From the NCBI GenBank assembly GCA_033032865.1, contig JAWHQI010000731.1:62001-126000 (forward strand): a stretch of 64,000 nucleotides of DNA, in the 5' to 3' direction. The position numbers were made by a program, and so were the translations under genes. Positions within the stretch are counted from its first letter, which is position 1. Each line of letters begins with the position of its first letter. Below are positions 22,601-64,000 of this stretch, in pieces. The stretch comes from Dactylorhiza incarnata. Its lineage: Eukaryota; Streptophyta; Magnoliopsida; Asparagales; Orchidaceae. Below the pieces are notes generated by a model, which was not told the origin of the DNA, did not search any database, and worked only from the letters and a program-made list of their open reading frames with translations.

Positions 22601-22713
22601 TGGAGGTCATTTGACCCAATAATTAATTAATATATGATTTATGAAATTATTTTAAAAAACTTAGAAAAAATTTCTCCAACAATTCCCATATTTGGGTATG
22701 ATGTGTGTGTAGG

Positions 22714-22722
22714 TATAAATAG
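22714..22722 (+). promoter_or_regulatory. TATA box of the outer LTR, copy 1
   Basis: TATAAATAG in the context GTAGGTATAAATAGCC, conserved at 59405-59413 in copy 2. The nested LTR inserted about 130 bp downstream, within the presumed R/U5 region. Confidence 0.6.
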
Positions 22723-24901
22723 CCTAGGTTTTAAATATCAAGCCCATAGCATTTCTCTATCAAAAGTTATTCAAGAAAAAGTGACTGCCCCACCCTTGGG
22801 ACCAGTCCTACCAAAATGGCCCTACATGGAGCTACACTGCCCCTATTGTAACAACCCCAAAACAACTAGACCCCTAAGATGCATTTTGTCATGACAAGGT
22901 CATGACATTGCTCTAAGAGACTAAAATGAGCCAAGGAGGCCCCATGAATTCCATAGGTTAAGGAGGAATACACATTGGTGTGCATTTAGCAAATCTTGAT
23001 GTCCTAGCTCAGAGGTGACCAAAAGACTCCAACAAATCAACATAACCTCATCATGACCCCTATGACCATCCAAGTATGTGAGTGGACCACTAGGGACCCT
23101 TGGGGCCAACCAAATTGGTCAATTTGACCAAAAGTCAACCTTGAGCTATCCTTGGTCAAACCTCCATGAATAAGGGCAACTGAACCCCAAATGATCAAAT
23201 TAGACACACCATCATATACAACCTCCCTAGGGGACCTAATGGACCCAAAAGCCCCATTTGGGGGCCACCAATTTGGGGAAATTAGGCCAATTACTAGGAA
23301 GCCTCAAATCGATCTATTTGTGCCAAAACCCTGAATTGACCTTTAATTTGCCAAGTTGACTTCACCCCTAGTCTTATAACATCACAGGGGACCCAATGAC
23401 TCCAAAAGCCCCATCTATAGGTCACCAAATTGGCCCAATTAGGGCATCATCATGACCCCATAAACATTGGACGGTGTCAAGGGACTCAAGACCAACACTT
23501 TGGACCAGTCAACCCATTAGTTGACCAAGTCAACCACAAAAGTCAACATAGGTCAAAATTGGGCTAAATGAGCATTTTGAACCAATTGAACCAAACCCCA
23601 ATGGGCCATGGCCTCAATAGGAAGCCCATCTTGCAGCCCACATACACAATGACCACTTATGCCCTCTGAAATTGAGAGGAGATGCCATGCAAGGGGGCAT
23701 TTAGGGAAACCCCCCAAATCCTCACATGAGTCCAAGGAGGGATTCATGGATTGAGTGCCAATTGGCACTCAATCCTTCCTCCTTTACTGTGCCCTGAACT
23801 CAGGGAGTAATTCCCAGCAGCTTTTTGGTGAGGCGGCAGCCAAGTGGAGGAGGGAGGAGGAAGCTCCACCAAGTGGCCGGCCACATTAATGGCTAACCTC
23901 CAAAGATCTTCAAATCAGCGTGAAATCTCCTCTCCCCTGGCTCAAATTCGAGCTTAGGATTTGAATTTCAATGAGCTGGAGGCATGTGAATGGGCGGCTG
24001 AGGGTTGCTACCTTGGTGAAATCGCCACCCCAATTGGCTGCTAACAATATACTCACCTACAACCCAAATGGACGACACCATCACCTTCAGAAGCTCATGA
24101 GGAGTCGAGCTGGAGTTTTACGGAGGAGGATTTGATGCAGAAATGAGATCGGGAGGTGGAGCTCGCGGGAGGTGGTCGGCCGTGGCAAGTTCGGGTTTCC
24201 CTCAACCTCAAGCCGATCAAAGGCAAGATTCCTTCCCCTCTCCTCCCGTGCTAGTCTCCCCCTTTCTTCCTTTTCAAAATCTAATGAGGAATGGCGGAAT
24301 CGCCACTCTCGTTTTCCTTGTTCCGGTTCCAAAAAACGAGAATACCGTGGGCCTACTCTGGCCACCTCCGGCCGAGTTCTCACCGCTGTAGGATAGCCCT
24401 AGGTCGCGTGGAGGTGGTGGCTTTGCCGATTCGACGGAGATGCCCGGAGTTCGCCGGAAATCGGCCCGCAAAAACCACCCAGGGACGTGAGATCTGGACG
24501 GTTGGCTCAAAGAAGAAGACAAGTCCTCAGCCATTCGATCGGGGATAAGTGATACCCGCAGCCCAGAAATCATTTAATTCATATGGTTTTAATTAGCTGT
24601 CACACTTCTATATGATAATTCTGCCCAGGAATTTTAAGTAGTTTGCATGCAATTTTTGAAGGCCTTAGATGCCATATCTGCAAAAAGGGGCACAGACAAC
24701 TTTTGTAGCCCTATGGGTCTAATTTCATTTTCCACCTTAATCATCTGATTTGGTGCAATGTGGACATCAGGGCACCCATTTTTCTAGGACTGCTCTTTAT
24801 GTCTATTAGCAAACCATATTAATTCTGCCTAGAATTTTAATGTAGTTAGCATGCAATTTTTGAAGGCCTTAGAGGCCATATTTGCAAAAATGGGCAGAGA
24901 C

Positions 24902-26525
24902 AACATTGTAGCCCTTTAGGTTACCTTTAAAATGCCACTGACTTTATGTCATTTGGATTAGTACAACTCCTTCTATGTCATTTTTAATGTGACATGTCTA
25001 CAATAGTGTTTTGCTGAATTTTACACTTTATACAGCACTTGTAAGTTGAATTCACCTAGGATAAACTCATATCTGGAGTTTGTAATCAACATGAACATTG
25101 TATCCCTTTAGGTTACCTTTAAAATGCCACTGACTTTATGTCATTTGGATTAGTACAACTCCTTCTATATCATTTTTAATGTGACATGTCTACAATAGTG
25201 TTTTGCTGAATTTTACACTTTGTACAGCACTTGTAAGTTGAATTCACCTAGGTTAAACTCATATCTGGAGTTTGTAATCAACATGAACATTGTAGCCCTT
25301 TAGGTTACCTTTAAAATGCCACTCACTTTATGTCATTTGGATTAGTACAACTCCTTCTATGTCATTTTTAATGTGACATGTCTACAATAGTGTTTTGCTG
25401 AATTTTACACTTTGTACAGCACTTGTAAGTTGAATTCACCTAGGATAAACTCATATCTGTAGTTTGTAATCAAAATGAACATTGTATCCCTTTAGGTTAC
25501 CTTTAAAATGCCACTGACTTTATGTCATTTGGATTAGTACAACTCCTTCTATGCCATTTTTAATGTGACATGTCTACAATAGTGTTTTGCTGAATTTTAC
25601 ACTTTGTACAGCACTTGTAAGTTGAATTCACCTAGGTTAAACTCATATCTGGAGTTTGTAATCAACATGAACATTGTATCCCTTTAGGTTACCTTTAAAA
25701 TTCCACTGAATTTATGTCATTTGGATTAGTACAACTCCTTCTATGTCATTTTTAATGTGACATGTCTACAATAGTGTTTTGCTGAATTTTACACTTTGTA
25801 CAACACTTGTAAGTTGAATTCACCTAGGTTAAACTCATATCTGGAGTTTGTATTCAACATGAACATTGTATCCCTTTAGGTTACCTTTAAAATGACACTG
25901 ACTTTATGTCATTTGGATTAGTACAACTCCTTCTATGTCATTTTTAATGTGACATGTCTACAATAGTGTTTTGCTGAATTTTACACTTTGTACAGCACTT
26001 GTAAGTTGAATTCACCTAGGATAAACTCATATCTGGAGTTTGTAATCAACATGAACATTGTAGCCCATTAGGTTACCTTTAAAATGCCACTGACGTTATG
26101 TCATTTGGATTAGTACAACTCCTTCTATGTCATTTTCAATGTGACATGTCTACAATAGTATTTTGCTGAATTTTACACTTTGTGCAGCACTTGAAAGTTG
26201 AATTCACCTAGGTTAAACTCATATATGGAGTTTGTAATCAACATGAACATTGTAGCCCTTTAGGTTACCTTTAAAATGCCACTTACTTTATGTCATTTGG
26301 ATTAGTACAACTCCTTCTATGTCATTTTTAATGTGACATGTCTACAATAGTGTTTTGCTGAATTTTACACTTTGTACAGCACTTGTAAGTTGAATTCACC
26401 TAGGTTAAACTTATATTTGGAGATTGTAATCAACATGAACACTGTAGCCCTTTAGGTTACCTTTAAAATGCCACTGAATTCATGTCATTTGGCTAAGCAT
26501 AGCTCCTTCTATGCTATTTTTAGTG
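24902..26525. repeat. 192-bp tandem array, about 8.4 units
   Basis: The string GGTTACCTTTAAAAT recurs at 24919, 25111, 25303, 25495, 25687, 25879, 26071, 26263 and 26455, exactly 192 bp apart each time with no indels, and units differ by only a few substitutions. A more diverged pair of units with about 202-bp spacing (GCAATTTTTGAAGGCC near 24650 and 24852) precedes it. The array lies only in the inner LTR. The unit is non-coding. Confidence 0.95.
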
Positions 26526-27849
26526 AGACATGTACAGATCCGTAATTTGTTAGGTTAAACATTGGGTGCATTTAGCAAGAATGTAATGAAAGGTAGTTAA
26601 AGTCAAATACATCTTGGACTAGTATGAGACATAGGGTTGATAGCATTAGACCGATATTGAACTACAGTAGTTCCCAAGAATTTAACGAAGCCTTAACCCA
26701 ACACTTGTAGTGTAAACTCTCATCTGCACATCAAAAGCTATAACTAATAAATAAGGTCAAGTAATTCTTGGAGAATGGGAGACCTGGGGTTTGAGGTTCC
26801 TAGACCAATACTATGTTAAGGTAAAATTACTAGAACTCATAGGGATATCTACTTGATGCTCAACATACAAACCATGTTCGCACACCGTTCATTTTAAATA
26901 GAGTTTATGAGTAAACACCTTAGATTATTATGAAGTTTGATATTTGAGATTTTGTTAGTCACCCATCAAGTGCCTATGGCCAAAAACTTGGAACTCATTT
27001 AGACATGATAAGCTTAAGATTGCACCATATGAGTCAAATCTAGCGCTACCTCAATTTGGTCTACGGGTAGCAAACCTGATCTACATGACATAGACCACCA
27101 CCAGCCTTCATACATAGAACTATTAGCTCTTGAACATTGCGGGGTTACAGATTATTAGGGAGAGCATCTCTAAGGCCACCTTGGGAAATGAGGTCTAAGA
27201 GTGCGTTTAGCAAACTTTAAGTGTATGAGTTCACAGTGATATAAAAAGGAGGTTAGACCCCATTAAGGGCCCCACACACGACTCCTCGGTACTAAGTGAT
27301 TATATGAAAGTAGAACTGCCCTTAGCCGGGTGAGCCATCTTAAGGTGAATACTCATGGGCGAAGTCGAGAAGTATCTAAGGCGAACCCTGGATTAAGTAT
27401 GACGAAGAATAGTAGTGTGGGTCCAAGTAAGGATGAGATTTTTAAGTGTATGTGTGCAGTTCCTAGGTGAAGAAGGGAACTCGAGCTTAGAATGTGACGG
27501 CGGGAGAGTCAGCACCCAGTCATAATTGGTGGTGTTGGAGTTCAAAAGAACTCCCCCCCACTCCTAAGTGCCAAGTTTAACTCATCTTAGAGATTTAATG
27601 TAATTGGAGAGGAAGATGTGGATCAAGTAAAAAGGGGTAGATACCAACAAGATTAAGTGCCTTGGATGGAGGAAGTTCGGGGTGTCAGCCCGTCACACTT
27701 CCTAGTACCGCTGCGAACCCCTCACAGGGTAACCCTCCGGATGTTCAAGGCTAACCCTAAAGCTTCTAAGGTCAACTAAATTATAGACAAGACTAGTTAA
27801 GTAGAAGAACTTGACAAATTAACTTCCATCCCAAACCGGGACGGTATAT

Positions 27850-28380
27850 ATAAGGATGGACTGGGATAGTCCGGCGAGTGGTAGGCTCGGGTTATAAGGA
27901 TGGACTGGATAGTACGGCGAGCGGTAGGTTCTGGTTATAAGGATGGACTGGGATAGTCCGGCGAGCGGTAGGCTCGGGTTATAAGGATGGGCTGGGATAG
28001 TCCTGCGAGCGGTAGGCTCGGGTTATGAGGATGGACTGGGATAGTCCTGCGAGCGGTAAGCTCGGGATATATAAGGATGGACTGGTGTAGTCTAGCGAGC
28101 AGTATGCTCGTAGTTTATATATAAGACTAATGTAGTCTAGCGAGCGGTATGCTCGTAGTTGAATATAAGACTAGTGTAGTCTAGCGAGCAGTAAGCTCGT
28201 AGTTCATAAGATAAGACTAGTATAGTCTAGCGAGCAGTAAGCTCGTAGTTCATAACATAAGACTAGTGTAGTATAGCGAGCGGTCAGCTCGTTGTTTATA
28301 TATAGGACTGGTAATAGTCTGGCGAGGTGTAGGCTCTACTTTATAAATGTTGATGTAGATTTGCGAGCTGGAGGCTCGGT
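27850..28380. repeat. 44-bp tandem array, about 12 units
   Basis: Units of ATAAGGATGGACTGGGATAG followed by TCCGGCGAGCGGTAGGCTCG, with GCGAG cores about 44-46 bp apart from 27873 to 28362. Units change gradually from the GGATGGACTGGG form to the AGACTAGTGTAG form along the array, a sign of stepwise local amplification. Confidence 0.9.
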
Positions 28381-28840
28381 TGTAAAAGGCTAACATATGT
28401 TGCTTGTGTATAAGATGTGGTGGGTCTCCGGTTCTGTCTTAGTCGTCACACCGACAGCAGTTCGTTGACTCGACAGTGCTAGTGGTTTTAAGGGGGCCAG
28501 GTTGTCTTACTGCGTGTCCGACGGGACGGATTCCCTAAACCCTGCCCGACCAATTCAGTTTAGTACGCAGGAGCTCGTGAGTACCGGGTACCGGTATCAC
28601 AGCGTACGTTAGGGCCTAGGTCTGGTAGTGTGACATACCCACCTAGGTGAGGAGACGTCCGCTCCTCTGCCACCGTTTGACCACGACGGGAGGTGCCCGA
28701 GAGGTTAGCTACCTCCGAAAAGTGGGAACTAAAGGTCTGTACGTACAGAGTCTTGTGGGTGAGTTGCATGTGTATGAAATAATAATACAAACATTGCATC
28801 ATTGCATTGCACCTCATAGCATAACATTTCTGCACAAACC

Positions 28841-29197
28841 GAGACCTCATCGTATAAATTAGTGTGGGCTCTTTTATACGATGAGTTTACTTCTTGCCAG
28901 ATCCCTTGACTTATGTGTCTTGTGTGTACGCATATAAGTTAAGGTTAATTTTCCTAGCTGCTCTTAGTCTATTATACTTGCTTCTTATATTGCATTGTCT
29001 TTACCTATTGCATAAACAGAGACCTCATCGTATAAATCAGTGTGGGCTCTTTTATACGATGAGTTTATTGCTTGCCAGATCCCTTGGCTTATATGCCTTT
29101 GTGTGTGCATATAAGTTAAGGTTACTTTCGTAGCTGCTCTTAATCTATTATACTTGCTTCTTATAATGCAATGTCCTTTACCTTATATACATTGCTA
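28841..29197. repeat. 178-bp tandem duplication in inner LTR
   Basis: GAGACCTCATCGTATAAAT starts at 28841 and again at 29019. Both units contain the inverted pair CATCGTATAAA / TTTATACGATG. Confidence 0.85.
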
Positions 29198-30448
29198 GTT
29201 TACCTCTTGTCACCTGCTTTTTGAATTACCCCTTGATGTCCTCCGCTTCCTCCTCCCGCACGGTGCCTAGGAGTCGCGGGTGGAGGCGGTGAGGAATATG
29301 CTGAGTCTTTTAGACTAACGGTCAGTGGACCATATCATTTTAGGGATGATGTACTGGAGCAGCAGGACCCCGTTTAGGAGACAGGATAGGAAGACGGGGT
29401 GAACCAGAATATCCACTAGGCGTCGTCGCAGCAGCAGCTACAGATGTATGAGGACAGAGTTGATTGCTTCCGCATAAATGTAGAATGAGAGTATCGATGT
29501 ATATATATTTGATCATGTAATGGGCATATGCCCTCTTTACTTTAAATCTCATCTTGGACATTGCATCATGTAATTTATATATAAATGTGATTTGTGGACT
29601 GGTTGCTTCTTTTATTTCCTCTATTACTGCGAATTGTGGTTGGCCTGAATGATGTTGATTAGCCGGCAGGATCGGCGTGTTGTGGTGACGACCATTTGGC
29701 GTAATGGTCTCACCGCAAGACAGCGGTTCTGGGCGGTAAGACCCGGTTGAAAAGCAAAAAAAAGAGGGTCTTACACCAATTGGGATGAAACAAATTTTGA
29801 AATAAAGTACACACCAAGAGCTACAACTTTGATGTTGACCACTTTTCTGTAGAGGGACCTATGTATTTTATATAATTATTTCTAACTACTGCCAATAAAG
29901 GGACAGAAATATAGGAATAATAATGCATTATTATAAAAAAAAACTGTTGCACGAATCTTAAAGCAGAAATGGAGGGCATCTGGTTGTCTTCCTCCTCCAG
30001 CAATGGCCGAAATTCACTCCTCATGTAGCCTCTTCCAGCCCATTTTCCCGGCCATCCGACCACCTCCTTGGCCGGACACCACCACCACCACCACCTCCGT
30101 TGAGGTGGTGGCTAACGCCGGGCGGCGGCACGGCCGCCGGAGGGGCCGATTCCGGCGAACCCACGGGAAGAAAATCCATGGAAATTTCAGATTTTCGCTC
30201 ACCAGATCGGGCTCAATTGAGCCCGATTTCTCTCCTATTTTGATCTAAGCTTTATCCACTGAGATAGAGGAGGAGGGGAGGACCTTTATTGGAGCCCGAC
30301 GACGATGGCGGCGGTGGTCGACCTTGGCTTTTCCCCTCTCCGACGAGCTTGCCCGATCCCTCGATTCTCCACAAAAACATTCGATCCAATACATTATTTT
30401 GACTGCCATCCATCTTTTGAAGCTAATGGTGGAGTTGGATATGAGAAT

Positions 30449-30471
30449 GGGGGGGGGGGGGGGGGGGGGGG
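30449..30471 (+). repeat. 23-nt poly-G tract, copy 1
   Basis: Uninterrupted G run inside the right segment of the outer LTR. The matching tract in copy 2 is 60203-60225. Confidence 0.9.
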
Positions 30472-30827
30472 CTGCATAGGGGGGATTTGAGGGGAACAAA
30501 ATTCGGCCATGCCATTAATGGCTATTAAAGGTGAATTTCGGCCATGGTAAAAACACCAAAATCAGCCCCCATGTGGGTTGGAAAACCTCTTAAACTTCTT
30601 ATAACTGAAAGAGGGAGTGAAACTCATCAATTGGGGAGGCCTTAGGCCTCCCCTTGGCCATGAATGTCATTACTTCTCTCTTTCTCTCTCCTATATTTTT
30701 GGGGAAAATGGGATTTTCTCTCTCCTGGCCGAATTCTCCAAAATTGAATGACAATTTCAGTAATTCCCAACCCCATTAGGTAGTGGACCACTTCAATTGG
30801 GTCTAGCCCAAGTGGATTGGACTTGAT

Positions 30828-31250
30828 TGGGTCAAAATAGGTCATTTTGACCTAAATTTAGGGTGGAGTTAACTTTGGTCAATTTGAACATTTGGGTTGA
30901 CCCCAATGGGTGGGTAGTGGCCCATTGGTCTCTCTTAAGGGTTAGGAAGGTCTGGGTAGGGTCAATTTGGCAAGGTGGAGGCCAATTGACCCACAATAGG
31001 GCAATTTGACCAAAATAGGGCTAGAGTTGACTTAGGTCAAATTGGTGGCCCCATGATGGGGGTTTTTAGTCCATTGGGTCCCTAATATCCTTATAAGGGT
31101 AGGGGCAAGGTCAATTTGGCATGGTGGGGGCCAATTGACCCTAATTAGGCTACTTTGACCAATTTAAGGTTAGGGTTGACTTTGGTCAACTTGGCCACTT
31201 TGGTTGAGCCTAATGGGTCCTTGGTGCTCTATGGGAAACCCTAAAGGGTT
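30828..31250. repeat. About 150-bp degenerate repeats rich in TTGAC, copy 1
   Basis: Three units with the order GGTCAATTTG, GGCCAATTGACCC, TTTGACC and GTTGACTTTGGTCAA. TTTGGCAWGGTGG occurs at 30966 and 31115. The region has many TTGAC/GTCAA cores, the core of WRKY-factor W boxes. It lies downstream of the LTR TATA box. Whether any site is bound is unknown. Confidence 0.65.
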
Positions 31251-31462
31251 AGGTATTCTATGGTGAGGTCAAATGGTGAAGGTGAGGCCCTAAAGTCCAA
31301 CCCTAAGCTTGGTAACTGGAAATTGCTATTTACAGACAAAGGTGGTTTTCTTCTTCTTTCCTAAGCTTTTATGCACCCTTTGTGCTTCCTATGGGTTTGT
31401 CATGCCCATGTCATGACAACACCATCCTAGGGGTCTAGCTGTTTGGGGGATGTTACAATATA

Positions 31463-31802
31463 TGTCTTATAGGATAGAGTCGAATACCTTTGAATTGCGG
31501 GTTGCTAAACCTACTAGATGTGAGTGCTAATCCTGAGATGTCCCCCCGCCCAATATTGGGGACCCGGGTAAAAGAGTCAAATTCTTGGCTAACGTAATAG
31601 CATACATCATCACATCATAATATTCTTTTATTTTCATCATATCGTGCACGTCGCATCATCACATCTTGAATTATCATTGTTTACCAATCAGATAGCCATA
31701 TATTAGGCCAGTTTCAACAGACCATTTATCAGGCTAGTCATTTAGACCCCTCAAAAGACAAATTATCAGTCTGACTACGATAATTTCATATGCGCATAAT
31801 CT

Positions 31803-31841
<39 letters not shown>

Positions 31842-32425
31842 CACGTTAAATGCCAATTATATTCATGTCATCAATTATGCATGCAATGCAATAAAAAACG
31901 CAGGGTTTCATTATCAAGTGAATACACACAATTCGACCCTTTGTTATATCTATCGAATTATTGCATAAACATCAACATTATTTAGGCATAACAATTACCT
32001 AGTATAAGACATACGTACTCCATTACATTTCACCTACCTCAATTTCGGCGCTCAAATTATGTCGGGTAGTATTTCAGTGCTTTTTAAGAATTCAGGCTTC
32101 AATTTCAAAACATAGTACTTGGGCAGCACTTCGACACAACCTAAGATTGAAATGTCTCTCTAGAAACTTTCCCGAACTTCCCAAAATTTTTCTCAACGTT
32201 CTGACACTTTCTCTCTAATTTCTCTCCTTGTCTCTTGATTTCAAATAACTGAAAAGGATTTGAAGTAATTTAAACATTCCATTGGATCCGTATTTGTAAT
32301 ATTTTTTCAACGCCACCAAAATCACCTAAATCCGAGCTCTTGAACTCCCGGAAAGTCCAAAAAATCAAATCGCCCTTTGCTGGGCTCTCCGGAGATGACA
32401 CATGTCGCCCATATAGATATTTGGC
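31463..32425. other. Intergenic with TA microsatellite, copy 1
   Basis: AT-rich sequence with a TA run at 31805-31838, longer than in copy 2 (61559-61577). No gene seen. Confidence 0.6.
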
Positions 32426-32695
32426 ACCACATGTCGCCACGTGGATTCCATGCACGTTGCCACATGGCAGCATGCACGTCGCAACATGGCGACCATACAC
32501 AACACCATGTGTCGCCACGTGGTGGCCATGCACGTCGGCAAGTGGAGGGAATGCACGACACCACATGGCGGTCATGTATGGATCCACATAGCATCCAAGC
32601 ACGTTGCCACATGTCGACTATGAATTTCGCCATGTGTTGGTCATGCACGACGCCACGTATCGCCATATGTTGCCACGTGGCGTGCACCTGCCAGA
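32426..32695. repeat. 23-bp minisatellite rich in CCACGTGG, copy 1
   Basis: About eleven units of ATGCACGWCGCCACATGGCGRCC type, 22-24 bp each, with one longer unit. Each unit has a near-palindromic CCACRTGG core; four are exact CCACGT, the G-box core. Overlapping frames are open on both strands because the unit lacks stops. I do not treat them as genes. Confidence 0.88.
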
Positions 32696-32881
32696 AAAAA
32701 TGAATATACCTACATGGTATTTTTTTTACGTCCTGATTCCAAATCCGGCCTTGATTTTTTCTATATTCTTACCGGTTCTTGCCGAATTTACACTTTTTTT
32801 TATACGAGTGCTGATTTTGGCAAATAAAATTTTTGAACACCGGAATTGTACTTTTTTCGTACAAACTCTATTTTTTATACA

Positions 32882-33709
32882 AGAAGGAACAATTGATTGA
32901 AATTTGCCAGCGAGTGTGGTTTCGCAATCGTTGTTGGAGCTGTTTTGGCCTGGAAACCCTCCCTTCGTCGATTCCTTGTCCGCATGTTATGCTTTCTCGG
33001 AGAGACTCCACCCGCAGAGATTGTAAGTTTAGCTTGGATTATAAACTTCAATTCAGCTTTTCGATTACATTTTTTTTTCAAGCAAGGAGAAGTTCTCCTG
33101 CCCGTACAAGCACGAGAGAATACGCCGGGCAACCCTCTGGTTGCGATAAACTTTAACATTAACGTCCACTCTGGGGGAGTAGAATCGAAGATCAATCAAA
33201 GCAAGGGGGAATCAAGACTTGCGGTAGAGGATGGCGGAGCATGAGGAGTTGCACTGATCGATGTATATTATACTTTGTAATTTAATAAATATAAACCCCC
33301 AGTCACGCTATATTATAACAATACTTCAGCGTTGATTTCATCGATCAATGCAGTAGCATGGGGGCTACTGCAAGTCCTGATTCTCCCTTACTCGGATTGT
33401 TCTCCGATTCTACTCCCCCAGAGTGGACGTTAATGTTGAAGTTTACCGCAACCAGAGGGTTGCCCAGCGTATTCTCCCGTGCTTGTACGGGCAGGAGAAC
33501 TTCTCCTTACTTGAAAAAAAATGTAGTCGAAAAGCTGAATTGAAGTTTATAATCCAAGCTAAACTTACAATTTCTGCTGGTGGAGTCTCTACGAGAAAGC
33601 ATAACATGCGGAGAGGGAATCGACGAAGGGAGGGTTCCCAGGCTAAAACAGCTCCAACAACGATTGCGAAACCACACTCGGTGGCAAATTTCAATCAATT
33701 GTTCTTTCT
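32882..33709. repeat. Long inverted repeat (arms about 380 and 371 bp, 75-bp loop), copy 1
   Basis: The left arm 32882-33263 (AGAAGGAACAATTGATTG to TGATCGATG) is complementary to the right arm 33339-33709 (CATCGATCA to CAATTGTTCTTTCT) with few mismatches and small indels. The loop is 33264-33338. A transcript through both arms would fold into a long hairpin. Each arm has an 83-115-residue open frame (MKFASECGF... on plus, MKFATECGF... on minus), which I do not recognise as any family. The structure is conserved in copy 2. Confidence 0.92.
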
Positions 33710-34817
33710 CCGCGACATCACAAACTTTCCTCCCACCTCTTCATCCTATGCAGCAAGCCATTTTATTTTTTCTAATCATTTTTAGATTTAATACCATCAT
33801 GGGCCGGAGGAGCTGTTTCTTCTCGAGCTTCTGTTCCTTTTTCCACTAATTTGACTCCTGCATTTAACAGTCATCATGTAGTGTTCATTCCGGTGCTTGT
33901 AGTTTGAAGTCATGTTTTGGAAAGCTGTGTTTTTTATTTTCTTCCAATTTGTATGCAAAATTAAAACAAAGCTTTTGACTGAGTTTTGAAGAGATTTAGG
34001 TTCCGTTTGGCACGGCGGTGGCGGCCATGAACGCGGTGGTCATGAAATGTCGTTCGTGAACGCCTGACCTCACCTATTAAATAATTATAATTATTTCTGT
34101 AATAGAATTTTCGAAATAAAAAAAACTTAATTAAAATGACATGAATTAAAATAACAAAAAATATTAGAGTAAGAAATCAAACCTGGGTAAGAAATGTGAT
34201 TACTGTCCTAAAGAAGTTGCATCATCCTCCGACAGGACTTTCAACCGATGCTCACTTCTCCAAAATACAACATCCGGCTAGATACCAAAACTTCGATGTG
34301 TGCGGACACTGAAGAAGCACAGAACACCCAAACTTTTACTAGATGAAGCAACCGTAGAATAACAAGAAACTATATTGAAAGAAATGAGAGCTTAAGGGGA
34401 AAAAGAGGAGAGAAATTGTATGTATATTATACTCTCATACTTTAGAGAGTTATTTATAGGCTAAAAAAATATTTCACAATTTATTAAAATATTTAAACAT
34501 TTAATTATAATAATTAATACAAAATATTAATTATTTGATAACATTAATTAACTATATAATAAATATCTTATTTACTATATAACGTTAACCCTATATCATA
34601 AATATATATATATATATAATATTTATTATATATTTAACATTAATAACATTAAAGTTTATAATATTAAATGAATTGAACTTATGTTAAAGTTAATATCATA
34701 AATATTTTGCACATTATTATCTTTATTAATAATAGGAATATTATAATATCATTTTATTCATTACAATAATAAATGTATAATATATATTATATCTATAATT
34801 ATTAAAATATTATCATT
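33710..34817. other. Right edge of copy 1 and AT-rich flank
   Basis: The duplicated sequence ends at 34081, shortly after TTAGGTTCCGTTTGGCAC (about 33997), which resembles the start of a small DNA element of the GTTTGG type. From 34082 to 34817 the sequence is very AT-rich with TATATA runs and no gene. Confidence 0.55.
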
Positions 34818-36960: not shown

Positions 36961-37241
36961 TTTAGCCCATGTATAACCCGTAATCCGTCAAAACCAGGGG
37001 GGATGGTGAAAGTGGCGGTGACAGGTGAAAGTGATCGCTCATAAATGACTCCGGACGAGAGTAAAGGAGAGCGGCGGGGCCGGTATGGGGAACACCCACT
37101 CGGTCCTTCGCGGGCAAATGGGGGATGTATGTTACCTGTAACTCGTCAAGACCAAATCATAAGTAAAGACGACAGAGACCAACGGAAGCGGAGAAGAGAC
37201 GCCCGAGCCAAATGGATGAGTCCACCCGCCCGACACCCAAA

Positions 37242-37276
<35 letters not shown>

Positions 37277-37389
37277 AAATGGGGCTCCACTCGCCCAAGA
37301 AGGGGCGAGTGGAGTCCACTCGCCCAAAAGGGGCGACTGGAGTCCACTCGCCCAAAAGGGGCGAGTGGAGTCCACTCGCCCAAGGCCGG
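36961..37389. repeat. Leader with 33-nt poly-G and palindromic 28-bp repeat
   Basis: Contains a G run at 37242-37274 and, at 37283-37381, about 3.5 units of ACTCGCCCAAAAGGGGCGAG followed by TGGAGTCC. Each unit can fold on itself. The open frame through here joins the RT pseudogene but the repeat is not a known pol domain, so I take the pol homology to start near 37390. Confidence 0.75.
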
Positions 37390-40250
37390 AGAAGATACTG
37401 ATCAGCGGAAGGCTGAGCGAGCAGGAACAGGAGAAGGTCCGAAGGTGTATCCAACATAATGTGGATATCTTCGCATGGAGCGACGCGGAGATGTCGGGTG
37501 TCGATGCAAATGTGGCGTGTCATCGCCTCAACCTCGACTCGCGCATCCGCCCCATCCGCGAGAAGAAGAGATCTGTATCGACCACCCTCGCCGGGCCGAT
37601 CAGAGAGAAGGTAGAGGAGTTGCTGGAAGCAGGGTTTATAGAGGAGATCCAGTATCCGGGCTGGGTCTCCAACGTTGTGATGGTAAAGAAGAGTGGGAGG
37701 AAGTGGAGGATGTGCATCGACTTCTCTCTACTAAACAAAGCATGTCCAAAAGATTGTTATCCCTTACCCCGAATCGATGCACTGGTGGACTCAGCTGTCG
37801 GCTTCCCGGTGATGAGCTTCTTGGATACATTCTCTGGCTGCCATCAAATCTAAATGCATCCGCCCGACGTTAAGGATGTCTCCTTCATCACAGACGACGG
37901 GTGTTATTATTATGAGATGATGCCCTTCTGGCTGAAGAACGCAGGAGCAACCTACCAAAGGATGATGGACCGAGTTTTCAAGGATCAAAAGGGCAGAAAC
38001 CTAGAAGTCTATGTGGACGACTTGATGGTTAAGAGCAGGGATGTGGAGTCTCACTTGCAGGATTTGGTGGAGACCTTCGCCACCCTTCGAAGGTTCAAGA
38101 TGAGACTTAACCCTTCGAAGTGCGTCTTCGGAGCAAGCCGAGGAAAGTTCCTTGGTCACCTACTCACCTCGGAGGGGGTGGAGCCCAACCCGGACAAGGT
38201 CAGAGCCATCTTGGAGTTGGAGTCGCCGAGGAGTGCGAAGGAGATCCAAAGGTTGACCGGGAAGCTGGCAGTGTTGAGCAGGTTTCTCTCTCGGGCTGGA
38301 GAGAAGTGCTCACCCTTCTTCAAAGCTCTAAGGGGAAATCAAAAGTTTGAATGGTCGCAAGAGTGCGAGGCGGCATTCCAAGCCCTGAAAAGGCAGCTGA
38401 CGCAAGCTCCACTGCTGCAAGGACCAAGAGAAGGGGAAGACCTGTTCCTCTATCTCGGGGTGGGCGCCGAGGCAGTAAGCTCGGTCCTAGTCCGAGAATA
38501 AGGAAAGAGACAACTTCTCATATACTATGTCAGCCGGGTCTTGAAAAAGGCGGAGCTCAGATACCCCATTCTGGAGAAGCTGGCATTTGCTTTGATCATT
38601 TCGGCCAGGAAGCTTCGACCCTACTTCCAGGCGCATTCGGTTAAGGTAGTGACCGATCACCCCCTTCGCGGCATTACGGAAGGAGTGGAGCACTCGGGCA
38701 GGTTGGCGAAGTGGTCTGTCGAGCTTAGCGAGTTCGATATCGCCTTCGTCCCTCGTCTATCAATGAAAGCGCAGGTGGTAGCGGACTTTCTAGCGGAGTA
38801 TGTAACCGAGGTGGATGAGTCGGAACCTCCCGAGTTGGTAGCATGGGAGCTGTTGGCGGATGGGGCATCAGGGAAGCATTCCCTCGGCGGAGGGGTGGTC
38901 CTAGTCAGCCCACAAGGGACAAGGATCGAACAAGCGATTGACATCCGATTCCCCATAACCAACAACCAGGCTGAGTACGAAGCAGTGGTGGCTGGGCTTT
39001 GTTTGGCAAGTTAACTAGGAATTTGGGATGTTAGAGTATTCACCGATTCGATGGTAGTGGCATTCCAGGTACGAGGGGAGTTCGAGACTAGAGAGCCGAC
39101 CCTCCAAAGGTACCTGATGAAAGTCAAGGGCCTCGTCAGTCGGTTCTGCACCTCAATCCAGCACGTGCCGAGAGAGGAGAACACTCGGGCGAACTCCCTG
39201 ACAAAGTACGGGCCTCGGTCCGTGGGAATAGTGAAGGAGTTGTTCCACCCATCTATTGAGGAGGAAAAGCTGATGGAGATCAATCAGAGGGCCTCATGGG
39301 TGGATCCGATCATTGTCTTTCTGACTTCGGGCAAGTTCCAGATGGTGTTCCGTATAAAAGTTGATTCAGGTACAAGTCTGCCTATTATCTGATGCGTGAA
39401 GGAAGCTTGTACAGAAAGACCCTGACAGGACTCCTAGCAAGGTGTGTGACGGAAGATGAGGTTCCAAGGGTCTTGGAAGAAATCCTTTCCGGGGAGTGCG
39501 AAAGCCATTCCGGGAGTCAGACCTTGGAGAAGAGGGTGCTGAGGCAGGGATACTTCTGGCCGACTCTTCGAGAGGACACCATGAAGTTTGCAAAGAAATG
39601 TCAGAAGTGCCAGCTCTTCGCACCACTCCAACTCCAGCCCGCGCAGAGGCTTCGAACAATCATGGCGCCTTGGCCTTTTGCCATTTGGGGAATGGACTTG
39701 GTCGGCCCGTTTTCTCAGGCGAGCGGCCAAAGAAGATTTTTATTAGTCATGATAGACTACATCTCCAAGTGGGTGGAGGTCAAGGCCTTGGCGAAGACAA
39801 CCTCACAGGTAGTAAAGAACTTTATTTGGGGAGAAATAATTTGCAGGTACGGGCTCCCCCTCGCCATAGTGACGGACAACGGACCGCAGTTCGCTAGCGA
39901 GGAACTCATTAGCTTCTGTGGTCAGGTAGGCATTGACCTTTGTTTCGCCTTCTTTCTTCATCCTGGGAGCAACTAGCAGGTAGAGGCGGCAAACAAGGTC
40001 ATAGTCAATTTACTGAAGAAAAAAGCGGGGAACTTGAAGGGAAACTGGGTGGAGCAGCTTCCCTCGGTCTTATGGGCCTTGAGAAAAACACCCAACATGC
40101 CAATGGGAGAAACGTCGTTCAAGCTCTCCCATGGATCTGAAGCTGTGCTCCCAGTGGAATTCGAGTTCAGGTCCCCCCGGGTCGTGGCCGCCGAGGAAGG
40201 AGGCGGAGACTGGAGGGTGGACAATGAGGAGGAACAACGGCCACTGGAAA
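37390..40250 (+). pseudogene. Ty3/gypsy pol pseudogene: RT, RNase H, integrase (plus strand)
   Basis: Domains in order: RT (FAWSDAEMSG, VVMVKKSGRKWRMCIDFS, an intact YVDD box near 38010, KCVFGASRGKFLGHL), RT-linked RNase H (LLIYYVSRVL, LRPYFQAHSVKVVTDHPL), a second RNase H (ADGASG near 38860, FTDSMVVAF near 39045), and integrase (zinc-binding KCQKCQ near 39600, first catalytic Asp in WGMDLVGPF, second in VTDNGPQF, Glu in QVEAANK). In-frame stops sit at 37851, 38499, 39012 and 39974, and a frameshift near 39355-39365 shifts the frame before MREGSLY. The first integrase zinc His is missing (SGECESHS). Homology ends near FRSPRVVAAEE (about 40195), where a G/C-rich minisatellite takes over. It is a different family member from the minus-strand element. 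Confidence 0.93.
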
Positions 40251-42687: not shown

Positions 42688-43803
42688 GTAACGTTGCCAT
42701 ACTGTGACTTCCACGATGAGGAAGGGAACGCGACGGCCACCTGCCCCGAATTCCTGGAGAAGAAGAGGGGCCGAATGCCCACACCAAGACAGCAGCCACC
42801 GGTGAGGATCGAGGAGGTCGAGCCTCGAGAGGATGAGGAGAGTTGCGAGGACCGGGCCGATGTGGGGACCCGAGGTGGGACCGGAGTGATCCATGGGGGG
42901 GGGGGGGGGGGGGGGGGGGGGGGTAGGGGGGGAGGCAACCCGCAAGGCTAGCCTTCATACCATCTATCGCCGGAGCGTGGCCTCAACATCCACCGCTCCA
43001 CCCCCAGCGGAGAAAATTAACTTCTCCCAGAGGGATATGCCAAGTCACGAAGACCCGTTCTGCGATGCGCTGGTTATCCAAACCGCCATCGTGAACTTCA
43101 CCGTCTCGAGGATCCTGGTCGATAATGGGAGTTCAGTCAACGTCGTCTTCAAAAAGGCGTTCGACAAGATGAAGGTGGAGTCCAGGAGGGTGTTGGCCTC
43201 AGATGGTCCCTTGTTTGGTTTCTCGGGAGAAAGGAAGGAGGTTGAGGGTGGAGTGGGACTCCATGTGACCCTTGGTGGGCAATCCCGGAACTGCCGTTTC
43301 GTGATAGTGGACGCCCCGAGTAGCTACAGCGCTATCTTCGGACGGCCTCTCATCGGCGCGTTCCGATGTGTCCCTTCCACCTTCCATCAATGCCTCAAGT
43401 TCAATGCAGATGGTATCCAGGTCAGGGTTCGGGGAGACCCTAAGGTGGCGAGACAGTGCTACGTAACGGCTGTCAACACCGTCTCCTGGGTGAATGAGGC
43501 GGAGGAATGGGATCAGGTGATGGGGGAAGCGGCCGAGGCTGGAGATGAGAAGGAGGCGGAGGAGAAGACGGGGGAGAGGGCAGTTCATGCCCAGGAAGGG
43601 GTCGCTGAGGGACCCCGGGCGGAGAAGGGATAGGAAGAAGAAAAGGAAGAGAGGACCTCAGAGCGAGGGGTGAAGGAGCTAGAGGAGAAGGAAAAAGTAG
43701 AGGAAAGGGGAGAAAGGGAAGTTCATGCCCAGGAAATGGTTGCGGCAGGACCCAGGGCGAGGGAAGGAGTAGAAGAGGAAAGAAAGGAGAAGGTCTCGGA
43801 AGG
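42688..43803 (+). pseudogene. Ty3/gypsy gag C-terminus and protease fragment (plus strand)
   Basis: Begins with YCDFHDEEGNATATC, the zinc-binding end of gag, then EFLEKKRG. A 29-nt G run (42895-42923) follows. After it comes the protease: SRILVDNGSSVNVVF (about 43090-43140) with the DNGS active-site form, VDAPSSYSAIFGRPL, and a glutamate-rich tail (43500-43790, EEKTGERAVHAQEG repeated once). A TAG at 43631 closes the frame but similar coding-like sequence runs to 43803, where the segmental duplication begins. In an intact element this block lies upstream of RT; here it is 2.5 kb downstream of the pol fragment. Confidence 0.88.
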
Positions 43804-45178
43804 AGGGCCGAAGGTTTCTTGCCGAAGAGACTAGGGCAAAGACCGTCTTATCAGCCATTGTGTATCTGGCTTTGACATCGGTGGGTACTTTACTGAGGTA
43901 GTAAACGGGTCGTTGGACTCCTCCTTCGTCTTTTACTAGCACCGAGCTGACGGTCGTGGGGGATATTGCTAGGTAAAAGAACAAGACTTCTCCGGGTATA
44001 TGCTTGGATAAAAGTGGGGGGCGAAGCTAGGTACTGTTTGAGGTGCTCGAAAGACATCTGACATTCGTCCGTCCACTGGAACCTAGAGTGACGTGCCCCA
44101 TGGAGGATTTTTGAAGAAGGGGATATATTTATCACCCGTCCGTGCCAGAAATCGCAATAGAGCGGCAATCCTTCCGTTCAAGCGTTGCACCTCCTCGATG
44201 GAACGGGGTGGCGACATGCATGCCACTGCCTTGATCTTTTCCGGGTTTGCCTCTATCCCTCGATGGGTTACCATGAAACCCAGGAACTTTCCTGCCATTA
44301 CACAAAATGCACACTTGCTGGGTTTGAGCCGCATTTGGGAATGACGAAGGAGCTGAAAGCACCCTTCCAGATCTTCTAAGTGGTCACGGCTGCGGATGCT
44401 CTTTACCAACATGTCATCTACGGAAACCTCCATTGTGCCTCCGATGAGTCTTTGAATACTTTGTTCATTATCCTCTGGTAGGTTGCCCCGACGTTCTTAA
44501 GGCCGAAAGGCGTGACTTTGTAACAGTAAACTCCTTTGTTTGTTCAGAATGCGGTGTGCTCCTCATCTTCCGGGTTCATCTTGGTTTGGTTGTAGCCTGT
44601 GTATGCGTCCATGAAGCTGAGGAGCTCATGTCCGGCTGTTGCGTCGACCAGTTGATCTATTCATGGAAGGGGGAAACTATCCTCTGGGCACGCCTGATTC
44701 AGATTATTGTAGTCGACACACATCCGCCACTTCCCTTAGGCCTTCTTTACCATGACCACATTGGCTAACCATGTAGGGTATTTTGCTTCGCGGATGAACC
44801 ATGCTTCCAGGAGCTTCTTTACCTCCTCTTCGATCACCTTGAGCCGCTTCGGGGCTAAGTTCCGTTTATTTTGGATTACTAGCCTACAAGCCGGGTTAAT
44901 ATTCAGGGAGTGAAAGATGACCTGAGGATCTACCCCCAAACATATCTTCCGGGCTCCATGCGAAGATATCTTCATTAGCGCGGAGGAAGAGGGCAGATTC
45001 CTCTCGCTCTTCTTTGGACATAAGGGACCCGACCTGAACTGTCCGGGTCAGATCCTGCTGGGAGAGTGACACTTCTATGAGCCCTTCGACGGGCGATCCG
45101 CGCTGTAGAGTGGCTTCGTCCCATAAGTCGAAGTTGTCGATATTGAGGGCTGTTGCTTCCATTGGTCGTGCCTGCTTT
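43804..45178 (-). pseudogene. Ty3/gypsy RT region, copy 2
   Basis: Counterpart of 2588-3960. It starts abruptly inside the RNase H (PVYYLSKVP, SSARNLRP then unrelated spacer sequence), so the more distal RNase H and integrase are absent. The catalytic box is again SVDD (near 44425), and the stop after VVMVKKA and the G-run frameshift near 44935 are shared with copy 1. The linker upstream (MEATALNIDNFDLWDEATL) is in frame with the protease here, unlike copy 1. Confidence 0.9.
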
Positions 45179-45810
45179 AGGAAACACGTCCATGCCGCTT
45201 CTTGGTTTCCTCTTACGACCCATATCCCTAAGGAGGTTAGGAACTTCATAGCTAGGTGCGGAATAGATGGGATTGCTCCAAAAATGTATTGGAGCGGTCT
45301 TCCAAAGATGGCATTGTAGGCGGAGGTGGACTCCACCACCACGAACTGGATGTTGTGCGTCGTTTGCTTCGGGAATTCTCCCAACTTGACGGGAAGGGTG
45401 ATAATGCCCTGAACTAGAACAGGTCAGTTGTCGATGCCATTGACGGGTTCGGCCGTGAGGCTGAGCTGATCCTTTGTGAGTTTCATGCTTTGTAGTGTGG
45501 ACAGGAACATGACATCGACCGAGCTCCCGTTGTCGACCAATATCCTTCTAACGTTGAAGCATGGATCCCCAATTCCCGCGCTGATCACGAGTGGGTCCTG
45601 ATGCGGAAGTCGTAGCCCTTGTAGATCCTCTTCTCTGAAGGTGATTGTAATGTCCTGCTTGAGCTTCTTATCTTCGTGATCCCTTAGGGGTTTGGCAATC
45701 GAGAGGATTTGCGCTGCTAGGGTGGGAGGTATGGCGATTGTCTCGACTTCTCCCACAATCGGCCTTCCCCCTGCCGCGCCTCGGGGAGCGGGAGGCTGTT
45801 CTCTCATTTC
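45179..45810 (-). pseudogene. Ty3/gypsy protease region, copy 2
   Basis: Contains ILVDNGSSVDVMF and AYNAIFGRPLQ. A stop private to this copy (CGA to TGA on the coding strand, 45424-45426, after GIDN) splits the domain. The one-base loss seen in copy 1 near 3978 is absent, so the frame runs on from the second half into the linker before RT. Confidence 0.87.
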
Positions 45811-46719: not shown

Positions 46720-46739
46720 TCCCACAGACGGCACGAAAC
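46720..46739 (-). other. Primer-binding site region, copy 2
   Basis: Same region as 6096-6115, but TGGTGCC has changed to TCGTGCC on the minus strand. The adjoining LTR end has also changed (TGTTGCGG to TATTGCGG on the plus strand). Both would impair priming and integration. Confidence 0.7.
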
Positions 46740-59532: not shown

Positions 59533-59537
59533 CCTAT
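59533..59537. other. Empty insertion site of the nested LTR
   Basis: Single CCTAT followed by TGGGCTGAAAC, where copy 1 has CCTAT, 6,929 bp of LTR, then CCAATTGGGATGAAAC. Confidence 0.88.
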
Positions 59538-60202
59538 TGGGCTGAAACAAATTTTGAAATAAAGTACACACCAAGAGCTACAACTTTGATGTTGACCACT
59601 TTTCTATAGAGGGACCTAAGTATTTTCTATAATTATTTCTAACTGCTGCCAATAAAGGGACAGAAATATAGGAATAATAATGCATTATTATAAAAAAAAA
59701 CTGCTGCACGAATCTTAAAGCAGAAATGGAGGGCATCTGGTTGTCTTCCTCCTCCAGCAATGGCCGAAATTCACTCCTCCTGTAGCCTCTTCCAGCCCAT
59801 TTTCCCGGCCATCCGACCACCTCCTTGGCCGGACACCACCACCACCACCTCCGTTGAGGTGGTGGCTAACGCCGGGCGGCGGCACGGCCGCCGGAGGGGC
59901 CGATTCTGGCGAACCAACGGGAAGAAAATCCATGGAAATTTCAGATTTTCGCTCACCAGATCGGGCTCAATTGAGCCCGATTTCTCTCCTATTTTGATCT
60001 AAGATTTATCCACTGAGATAGAGGAGGAGGGGAGGACCTTTATTGGAGCCCGGCGACGATGGCGGCGGTGGTCGGCCATGGCTTTTCCCCTCTCCGACGA
60101 GCTTGCCCGATCCCTCGATTCTCCGCAAGAACATTCGATCCAATACATTATTTTGACTGCCATCCATCTTTTGAAGCTAATGGTTGAGTTGGATTTGAGA
60201 AT

Positions 60203-60225
60203 GGGGGGGGGGGGGGGGGGGGGGG
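60203..60225 (+). repeat. 23-nt poly-G tract, copy 2
   Basis: Same position in the LTR as 30449-30471. Confidence 0.9.
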
Positions 60226-60587
60226 TTGCTTAAGGGGGATTTAAGGGGAACAAAATTCGGCCATGCCATTAATGGCTATTAAAGGTGAATTTCGGCCATG
60301 GTAAAAACACCAAAATCAGCCCCCATGTGGGTTGGAAAACCTCTTAAACTTCTTATAACTGAAAGAGGGAGTGAATCCCATCAATTGGGGAGGCCTTTGG
60401 CCTCCCCTTGGCCATGAATGTCATTACTTCTCTCTTTCTCTCTCCTATATTTTTGGGGAAAATGGGATTTTCTCTCTCCTGGCCGAATTCTCTAAAATTA
60501 AATGACAATTTCAGTAATTCCCAACCCCATTAGGTAGTGGACCACTTCAATTGGGTCTAGCCCAAGTGGATTGGACTTGATTGGGTC

Positions 60588-61010
60588 AAAATAGGTCATT
60601 TTGACCTAAATTTAGGGTGGAGTTAACTTTGGTCAATTTGAACATTAGGGTTGACCCCAATGGGTGGGTAGTGACCCATTGGTCTCTCTTAAGGGTTAGG
60701 AAGGTCTGGGTAGGGTCAATTTGGCAAGGTGGAGGCCAATTGACCCACAATAGGCCAATTTGACCAAAATAGGGCTAGAGTTGACTTAGGTCAAATTGGT
60801 GGCCCCATGATGGGGGTTTTTAGTCCATTGGGTCCCTAATATCCTTATAAGGGTAGGGGAATGGTCAATTTGGCATGGTGGGGGCCAATTGACCCTAATT
60901 ATGCCACTTTGACCAATTTAAGGTTAGGGTTGACTTTGGTCAACTTGGCCACTTTGGTTGACCCTAATGGGTCCTTGGTGCTCTATGGGAAACCCTAAAG
61001 GGTTAGGTAT
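60588..61010. repeat. About 150-bp degenerate repeats rich in TTGAC, copy 2
   Basis: Counterpart of 30828-31250 with the same three units. Confidence 0.65.
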
Positions 61011-61216
61011 TCTATGGTGAGGTCAAATGGTCAATATGAGGCCCTAAAGTCCAACCCTAAGCTTGGTAACTAGAAATTGCTATTTACAGACAAAGGTGGT
61101 TTTCTTCTTCTTTCCTAAGCTTTTATGCACCCTTTGTGCTTCCTATGGGTTTGTCATGCCCTAGTCATGACCACACCATCCTAGGGGTCTAGCTGTTTGG
61201 GGGATGTTACAATATA

Positions 61217-62164
61217 TGTCTTATAGGATAGAGCCGAATACCTTTGAATTGCGGGTGGCTAAACCTACTAGATGTGAGTGCTACTCCTGAGATGTCCCCC
61301 CGCCCAATATTGGGGACCCAGGTAAAAGAGTCAAATTCTTGGCTAACGTAATAGCATACATCATCACATCATAATATTCTTTTATTTTCATCATATCGTG
61401 CACGTCGCATCATCACATCTTGAATTATCATTGTTTACCAATCAGATAGCCATATATTAGGCCAGTTTCAACAGACCTTTATCAGGCTAGTCGTTTAGAC
61501 CCCTCAAAAGACAAATTATCAGTCTGACTACGATAATTCCATATGCGCATAATCTTCAATATATATATATATATATTTGCACGTTAAATGCCAATTATAT
61601 TCATGTCATCAATTATGCATGCAATGCAATAAAAAACGCAGGGTTTCATTATCAAGTGAATACACACAATTCGACCCTTTGTTATATCTATCGAATTATT
61701 GCATAAACATCAACATTATTTAGGCATAACAATTACCTAGTATAAGACATACGTACTCCATTACATTTCACCTACCTCAATTTCGACGCTCGAATTAATG
61801 TCGGGTAGTATTTCAGTGCTTTTTAAGAATTCAGGCTTCAATTTCAAAACATAGTACTTGGGCAGCACTTCGACATAACCTAAGATTGAAATGTCTCTCT
61901 AGAAACTTTCCCGAACTTCCCTAAATTTTTCTCAGCGTTCTTACACTTTCTCTCTAATTTCTCTCCTTGTCTCTTGATTTCAAATAACTGAAAAGAATTT
62001 GAAGTAATTTAAACATTCCATTGGATCCGTATTTATAATATTTTTCCAACGCCACCAAAATCACCTAAATCCGAGCTCTAGAACTCCCGGAAAGTCCAAA
62101 AAATCAAATCGCCCTTTGCTGGGCTCTCTGGAGATGACACGTGTCGCCCATATAGATATTTGGC
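61217..62164. other. Intergenic with TA microsatellite, copy 2
   Basis: Counterpart of 31463-32425. The TA run is 61559-61577. No gene seen. Confidence 0.6.
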
Positions 62165-62434
62165 ACCACATGTCGCCACGTGGATTCCATGCACGTTGCC
62201 ACATGGCAGCATGCACGTCGCCACATGGCGACCATACACAACGCCATGTGTCGCCACGTGGTGGCCATGCACGTCGACAAGTGGAGGGCATGCACGACAC
62301 CACATGGCGGTCATGTATGGCGCCACATAGCATCCAAGCACGTTGCCACATGTCGACTATGAATGTCGCCATTTGTTGGTCATGCACGACGCCACGTATC
62401 GCCATATGTTGCCACGTGGCGTGCACCTGCCAGA
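62165..62434. repeat. 23-bp minisatellite rich in CCACGTGG, copy 2
   Basis: Counterpart of 32426-32695, same unit number, with several C/T and A/G differences inside units. Confidence 0.88.
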
Positions 62435-62620
62435 AAAAATGAATATACCTACATGGTATTTTTTTTACGTCCTGATTCCAAATCCGGCCTTGATTGTTTC
62501 TATATTCTTACCGGTTCTTGCCGAATTTACACTTTTTTTTATACGAGTGCTGATTTTGGCAAATAAAATTTTTGAACACTGGAATTGTACTTTTTTCGTA
62601 CAAACTCTATTTTTTATACA

Positions 62621-63456
62621 AGAAGGAACAATTGATTGAAATTTGCCAGCGAGTGTGGTTTCGCAATCGTTGTTGGAGCTGTTTTGGCCTGGAAACCCTC
62701 CCTTCGTCGATTCCTTGTCCGCATGTTATGCTTTCTCGGAGAGACTCCACCCGCAGAGATTGTAAGTTTAGCTTGGATTATAAACTTCAATTCAGCTTTT
62801 CGATTACATTTTTTTTTCAAGCAAGAAGAAGTTCTCCTGCCCGTACAAGCACGAGAGAATACGCCGTGCAACCCTCTGGTTGCGATAAACTTTAACATTA
62901 ACGTCCACTCTGGGGGAGTAGAATCGGAGATCAATCAAAGCAAGGGGGAATCAAGACTTGCGGTAGAGGATGGCGGAGCATGAGGAGTTGCACTGATCGA
63001 TGTATATTATACTTTGTAATTTAATAAATATAAACCCCCAGTCACGCTATATTATAACAATACTTCAGCGTTGATTTCATCGATCAATGCAGTAGCATGG
63101 GGGCTACTGCAAGTCTTGATTCTCCCTTACTCCGATTATTCTCCCTTACTCCGATTCTACACCCCCAGAGTGGACGTTAATGTTGAAGTTTACCGCAACC
63201 AGAGGGTTGCCCAGCGTATTCTCCCGTGCTTGTACCGGCAGGAGAACTTCTCCTTACTTGAAAAAAAATGTAATCGAAAAGCTGAATTGAAGTTTATAAT
63301 CCAAGCTAAACTTACAATTTCTGCTGGTGGAGTCTCTCCGAGAAAGCATAACATGCGGAGAGGGAATCGACGAAGGGAGGGTTCCCAGGCTAAAATAGCT
63401 CCAACAACGATTGCGAAACCACACTCGGTGACAAATTTCAATCAATTGTTCTTTCT
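62621..63456. repeat. Long inverted repeat, copy 2
   Basis: Left arm 62621-63002, loop 63003-63077, right arm 63078-63456. The right arm carries a small internal tandem duplication (ATTCTCCCTTACTCCG, about 63118-63155) not found in copy 1. Otherwise the arms still pair. Confidence 0.92.
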
Positions 63457-64000
63457 CCGCGACATCGCAAACTTTCCTCCCACCTCTTCATCCTCTGCAG
63501 CAAGCCATTTTATTTTTTCTAATCATTTTTAGATTTAATACCATCATGGGCCGGAGGAGCTGTTTCTTCTCGAGCTTCTGTTCCTTTTTCCACTAATTTG
63601 ACTCCTGCATTTAACAGCCATCATGTAAAAATGCAACATGCGGTCAGTTTCTATTTCATTTAGTGTTCATTCCGGTGCTTGTAGTTTGAAGTCATGTTTT
63701 GGAAAGCTGTGTTTTTTATTTTCTTCCTATTTGTATGCAAAATTAAAACAAAGCTTTTGACTGAGTTTTGAAGAGATTTAGGTTCCGTTTGGCACGACGG
63801 TGGCGGCCATGAACGCGGTGGTCATGAAATGTCGTTCGTGAACGCCCGACCTCACCTATTAAAATTCTTGCATTTTATACTCAAATTAGATTATTTTTTT
63901 CGTAGCGGTCATAACCTTTGTCTTGCCAAACATACATTCTATGATATGGCGTTTTTAATTGACCAAACTCATAGAGCAAATAAGCCGCGGCAAACATAGT
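63457..64000. other. Right edge of copy 2 and flank
   Basis: Duplicated sequence to 63864, with 34 bp near 63630 missing from copy 1, then flank to the window end. A small element may run from GTTCCGTTTGGCAC (about 63783) to CTTGCCAAACATAC (about 63924). The imperfect ends suggest a MITE but no TSD was fixed. Confidence 0.4.

Follow-up and report, generated by a model that had tools for sequence, protein, structure and literature searches.

The long hairpin at positions 32882–33709 of the window (the whole stretch of 64,000 nucleotides analysed here) very probably arose when the greater part of a small two-exon host gene was duplicated in inverted orientation; the two gene copies now lie tail to tail around a short spacer. 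Taken as a whole, this origin together with a hairpin silencing mechanism is probably the best explanation of the locus. The narrower proposal that the hairpin makes siRNAs that matter today, which draws on analogy with published loci, seems rather doubtful. The features on which the following account is built are collected in Table 1.

Table 1. Positions of the two hairpins, of the gene parts in the arms of copy 1, and of the duplicated blocks that hold the hairpins (window coordinates).
Feature	Positions	Strand	Remark
Left arm, copy 1	32882..33263	+	Gene copy in sense on +
Left arm exon 1	32900..33022	+	41 codons; P0001 homology
Left arm intron (inferred)	33023..33082	+	60 nt, GTAAGT...TTTTTTTTTCAAG; matches P0001 alignment gap within one residue
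Left arm exon 2	33083..33244	+	Open to TGA at 33242–33244
Spacer/loop, copy 1	33264..33338	.	75 nt, identical in both copies
Right arm, copy 1	33339..33709	-	Second gene copy, tail to tail with the first; decayed
Right arm exon 2	33345..33509	-	Begins with a TAA stop codon if spliced like the left arm; 10-nt deletion
Right arm intron	33510..33568	-	59 nt, one T fewer
Right arm exon 1	33569..33691	-	From translated frames and arm alignment
Left arm, copy 2	62621..63002	+	From self-comparison and arm alignment
Spacer, copy 2	63003..63077	.	From arm alignment
Right arm, copy 2	63078..63456	-	Extra 8 nt, frame broken
Duplication block with hairpin 1	29776..34081	.	96.5% to 59533–63863
Duplication block with hairpin 2	59533..63863	.	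From self-comparison

Anatomy and gene content of the arms

Pairwise comparison of the arms finds the inverted repeat at exactly 32882–33709, where the sequence-only reading had placed it, and the proposed anatomy of about 380-bp arms with a 75-bp loop agrees well with the measured one (arms of about 382 and 371 nt, spacer of 75 nt). A second hairpin, claimed at 62621–63456, is present as well, and an alignment of the four arms gives it the same anatomy. Two ungapped pieces of the pairing in copy 1 extend over 196 nt (32882–33077 with 33514–33709, 95% complementary) and 157 nt (33071–33227 with 33365–33521, 92% complementary). For the arm pairing of copy 1, 333 of the 366 ungapped columns are Watson-Crick pairs and 11 are G-U, with 11 further columns gapped; the corresponding values for copy 2 are 330 of 366, 11 and 19.

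The RNA fold of 32870–33720 has an energy of −634 kcal/mol, compared with a mean of −229 in 20 shuffles (z = −55), which excludes chance, and the locus at 32882–33709 therefore has the long inverted repeat and stable fold-back of a hairpin-siRNA locus. The description of the arms as near-perfect was generous in its wording: the inverted repeat is real, but few of the left-arm 21-mers have a perfectly matched partner in the right arm (70 of 362 in copy 1 and 67 of 362 in copy 2). Plant dicers tolerate mismatches. The other inverted matches in the window, as given by self-comparison (rows of at least 100 bp at E 1e-10), are either shorter, at 116–141 bp and 79–85% (including a 136-bp palindrome at 11287–11422), or weaker, at 288 bp with 70–71% and 445 bp with 65%.

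The arms had been said to carry an unrecognised coding-like frame, and this frame can now be named. The left-arm frame (32897–33241, + strand) matches P0001, an uncharacterised or hypothetical 105-aa protein of the orchid Platanthera guangdongensis, at E 9.7e-21 (one match among 5 candidates), and a profile search with a three-sequence alignment again returned P0001 as the sole match, among 86 candidates. The BLASTP alignment to P0001 contains a 20-residue gap that falls within one residue of a GT...AG intron-like stretch. This putative intron of 60 nt reads GTAAGT...TTTCAAG, with the start GTAAGTTTAG and the end TTTTTTTTTCAAG. When it is removed, the left arm aligns with residues 7–99 of the 105 residues of P0001 at 61% identity, the junction is gap-free (GETPPAEI-QGEVLLPVQARE against GETASEET-EGDVLLPVQARE), and the alignment has one one-residue gap near the C-terminus. 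From this alignment we infer splicing of the 60-nt stretch at 33023–33082. An acceptor 4 nt downstream was considered and rejected; with it, each of the four arms runs into a stop shortly past the junction, and the first acceptor is thus preferred.

Judged by this homology, most of a small two-exon gene is present in each arm as a genomic copy, with the pair arranged tail to tail. The intron-like stretch is common to both arms, which argues against an origin from processed RNA. The arms are homologous to a host-type gene and lie in opposite orientation, as in an inverted gene duplication, with one homologue from another species. The earlier guess that the hairpin holds a fragment of a host gene is well supported by the homologue, the intron and the open left frame, whereas the notion that the fragment was captured is better replaced by inverted duplication. 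Because P0001 is the only homologue found, the term “host gene” rests on a single annotated orchid protein.

An in-frame TGA (32894–32896) lies just upstream of the homologous part of the left arm, and the sole in-frame ATG of this arm is internal, at 32984 (codon 30 of the frame). The right arm carries the lesions listed in Table 1, of which the deletion in exon 2, judged against the left arm, falls close to the C-terminus, and in copy 2 it has an additional 8-nt insertion. It follows from these defects that the complete gene is present in no arm.

Five frames across the hairpin, compared with Pfam, gave 0 families at E 1 or better, PDB sequences gave no match to the arm frame at E 5 or better, and a search of the whole window (64000 bases) against Rfam at the gathering score gave 0 matches and hence no known MIRNA family. 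Relatives of P0001 were sought by tblastn in viral contigs (39 pattern matches) and genome contigs (252), both of which are poor sources of plant genes, and none was confirmed. A reverse frame at 33381–33782 (134 aa) was tried as a gene of its own; its 4 candidates include none at E 1 or better, and for want of a match we take it to be a shadow of the coding strand.

Order of the duplications and change since

Self-comparison reveals a large duplication within the window, in which 2582–5101, 5691–15256, 19150–22848 and 29776–34081 match, in order, 43798–46321, 46315–55821, 55818–59539 and 59533–63863 at 96.5–97.5%. The second hairpin lies inside this block duplication and is thus no independent insertion. 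This bears directly on the idea that the hairpin is a DNA transposon of the foldback or MITE type, its arms being long terminal inverted repeats and its gene similarity that of a transposon-borne gene. The presence of two copies in the window and the long arms around a short middle are in line with such an element, but copy 2 came with the block duplication of its whole neighbourhood and not by a separate insertion, and the exon-intron-exon content of the arms also speaks for a gene copy rather than a transposon. Copy 1 is flanked at offsets −12 and +10 by a 9-nt near-repeat with 1 mismatch, and copy 2 by one of 8 nt with 1 mismatch; such near-repeats are, however, at the level of chance, since near-repeats of at least 9 nt occur in 11 of 150 random position pairs and those of at least 8 nt in 33 of 150. 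Weak inverted pairs (21–27 nt at 74–81%) also flank the hairpin, although an exact target-site repeat of at least 3 nt accompanies 0 of the 5 pair-places tested (one of them an 18-nt pair without the hairpin between its members), as is also the case for 276 of 400 random pairs. Within the 64-kb window no hairpin copies were found besides the two duplicated ones. We consider the transposon explanation very improbable.

The relative age of the two duplications can be obtained from the arms themselves. Left and right arms of the same copy differ at 33 of 366 and 36 of 366 positions, while between the copies the left arms differ at 3 of 377 and the right arms at 9 of 366. The arms thus differ more than the copies do, which makes the inverted duplication the older event and the block duplication the younger. 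In a comparison of 88 codons, the changes between arms are 9 synonymous and 12 nonsynonymous in copy 1 and 12 and 13 in copy 2, corresponding to pS values of 0.137 and 0.185 against pN values of 0.061 and 0.065, respectively. The synonymous excess (binomial p of 0.07 and 0.01, in two tests that are non-independent) is a weak sign that the gene copies may have diverged partly while still coding. In the same 88 codons, the changes that postdate the block duplication are all nonsynonymous in the left arms (3 of 3), and in the right arms 3 are synonymous and 5 nonsynonymous, which on these small numbers shows no coding constraint.

These counts also bear on whether the left copy is a still working gene with a changed N-terminus, the hairpin then being incidental. 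Its frame stays open over 32897–33244, with or without the intron, and the left arm is the least changed between the copies (3 of 382), although its difference from the rest of the block is non-significant (p = 0.08). All 3 of these changes are nonsynonymous, however, and together with the TGA directly upstream of the homologous part and an in-frame ATG that appears only at codon 30, this makes a working left gene improbable in our view.

The sequence-only reading had further held that complementarity of the arms was kept in spite of divergence around them, and this the data do not bear out. The hairpin differs between the copies at 12 of 828 positions and the rest of the block at 76 of 3434 (Fisher p = 0.22), with 88 of 4262 differences in the whole block, 22 of 999 in the left flank and 6 of 372 in the right flank. 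Within the hairpin, the spacer contributes 0 of 75 and the right arm 9 of 371 plus the 8-nt insertion, in addition to the left-arm changes already given. Nor was pairing preserved site by site: 0 of the 12 substitution sites in the arms since the block duplication are compensatory; at 9 of them just one of the two copies is paired, at 2 the pair is G-U in one copy, and at 1 neither copy is paired. With no compensation and with nonsynonymous changes in the left arm, neither coding nor pairing looks maintained.

Such change is what would be expected of an inert pseudogene pair, one of the same inverted-duplication origin that is silent, decaying and without small RNAs. The stop codon and indels of the right arm, a divergence of the hairpin between copies like that of its surroundings, the absence of compensatory changes from the arms, and a neighbourhood rich in transposable elements (with MULE and retrotransposon reverse transcriptase matches) all agree with it. 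Published inverted gene duplications of the same architecture are, on the other hand, described as transcribed and diced in the accounts cited below, and a stem of such stability would still be a fit substrate. On balance we lean slightly towards the inert pair, which is at least as likely as present function.

One observation is not readily accommodated by neutral decay. The putative intron at 33023–33082 has 0 of 59 fixed arm-to-arm differences compared with 18 of 285 elsewhere (p = 0.05), or with 13 of 250 in the well-aligned exon part (p = 0.14). This low difference is borderline, and it is unexpected for an intron in neutral decay. A conversion tract was considered as the explanation and rejected, since shuffles produce identical runs as long as the longest observed one by chance (p = 0.42).

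Known inverted duplications and a possible silencing role

By analogy, the arrangement is of a known kind, shared with PAI1-PAI4 and with proto-MIRNA inverted duplications. For the tail-to-tail PAI4-PAI1 and the head-to-head VIM4-VIM2 loci of Arabidopsis Cvi, siRNAs are reported to act on homologous genes, and the authors think that alternative transcript isoforms form the stem-loops (PMC13213937). As at PAI1-PAI4, two host-gene copies form a tail-to-tail inverted repeat with a predicted stem-loop RNA and, as at VIM4-VIM2 (ecotype Cvi), the arms span exon and intron, although the VIM genes are head to head; what sets those loci apart from the present one, as described there, is that the siRNAs and their effects on homologous genes were measured and the gene family is known (PMC13213937). 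The present locus differs from PAI and VIM in an arm identity of about 90%, in the very small size of its gene and in being known from its sequence. Comparable cases reportedly exist in rice (tail-to-tail glutelin genes) and in monkeyflower.

A further case is MIR1444, for which an origin from tail-to-tail PPO gene copies has been proposed (PMC5223194). The present hairpin resembles proto-MIRNA loci, as that source describes them, in having tail-to-tail gene copies (complete or partial) with arms that drift apart (PMC5223194); unlike MIR1444, its stem is hundreds of bp long, with no mature miRNA known and no Rfam match. IR71 of Arabidopsis, with a dsRNA of about 3 kb that is reported to be processed by DCL2 and DCL3 and secondarily by DCL4, is likewise a long endogenous inverted repeat able to give dsRNA, whereas the predicted stem here is only about 370 bp (PMC12825306). 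The Tpd1 hairpin of teosinte pollen drive is described as expressed, giving 22-nt siRNAs and targeting Tdr1; ours resembles it in being a hairpin and a possible silencer of a host gene in trans, here as a candidate read from the DNA itself (PMC11390486).

In the explanation that we favour, an uncharacterised small two-exon host gene was for the most part duplicated tail to tail at the DNA level, and a large segmental duplication later copied the inverted pair, already formed, along with its surroundings. Transcription of either gene copy that runs past the 3′ end would produce an RNA whose stem, about 370 bp long, DCL2/3/4 may cut into 21–24-nt siRNAs, and these could act in trans on the mRNA of the parent gene and on DNA methylation, as for PAI1-PAI4 in Arabidopsis. 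Transcription, splicing, dicing and targeting at the hairpin locus are thus predicted steps, and by analogy with these systems it is plausible that siRNAs from the hairpin would silence the parent gene. The spacer holds poly(A)-type signals, with AATAAA at 33284 (+) and an AATAAA/ATTAAA-type match at 33286 (−), and the AATAAA at 33284 could cause transcripts to end before the second arm. The two hairpins share 582 of their distinct 21-mers (of 808 and 816), so that both would act largely alike.

A more specific version, in which a lineage-specific doubled hairpin silences a P0001-family gene in trans as a dosage switch or an early proto-MIRNA, with a role for the intron stretch, we regard as unlikely; the P0001 family is seen in one orchid species among the searches made here. 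Should the locus be transcribed, it would illustrate in nature how a gene duplication passes into a small-RNA gene, and would offer for comparison two hairpin copies of known relative age with a definable target. With the frame now named, the target to seek is the host's own P0001-like gene.

Neighbourhood of the hairpins

Copy 1 of the large duplication has three extra stretches that are missing from copy 2. The one at 22849–29775 (6.9 kb) is LTR-element-like, with ends TGTAACAACC and GGTCTTACA, and contains a tandem array of 8.5 units of 192 bp (24902–26533, 95% matches) as well as 44-bp repeats at 27849–28326. For the other two, at 15257–19149 and 5102–5690, the matching blocks share 4 and 7 nt at their junctions in copy 2, as after transposon insertion. 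The scan for mobile elements covered three of the 17 listed ORFs (7566–8081, 37854–38501 and 3961–4542). The first is a MULE transposase fragment (Pfam PF10551) with a duplicate at 48239–48799; the second matches RVT_1 (reverse transcriptase) and belongs to a group of retrotransposon-like pol ORFs between the duplicated blocks (37212–39976, + strand); and the third, 3961–4542, reached no Pfam cut-off. Together with the orchid homologue, these mobile-element matches lead us to regard the DNA as nuclear plant DNA.

About 200 bp before the left arm, at 32437–32659, there is an array of units of about 23 bp that are rich in CATG/CACGTG, and similar units occur in copy 2 at 62188–62315. To the right of both hairpins (33999; 63781–63933) we find GGTTCCGTTTGGCA, to which TTGCCAAACAT at 63923 in copy 2 may be an inverted partner; the arrangement resembles the two termini of a small DNA transposon, interrupted in copy 1.
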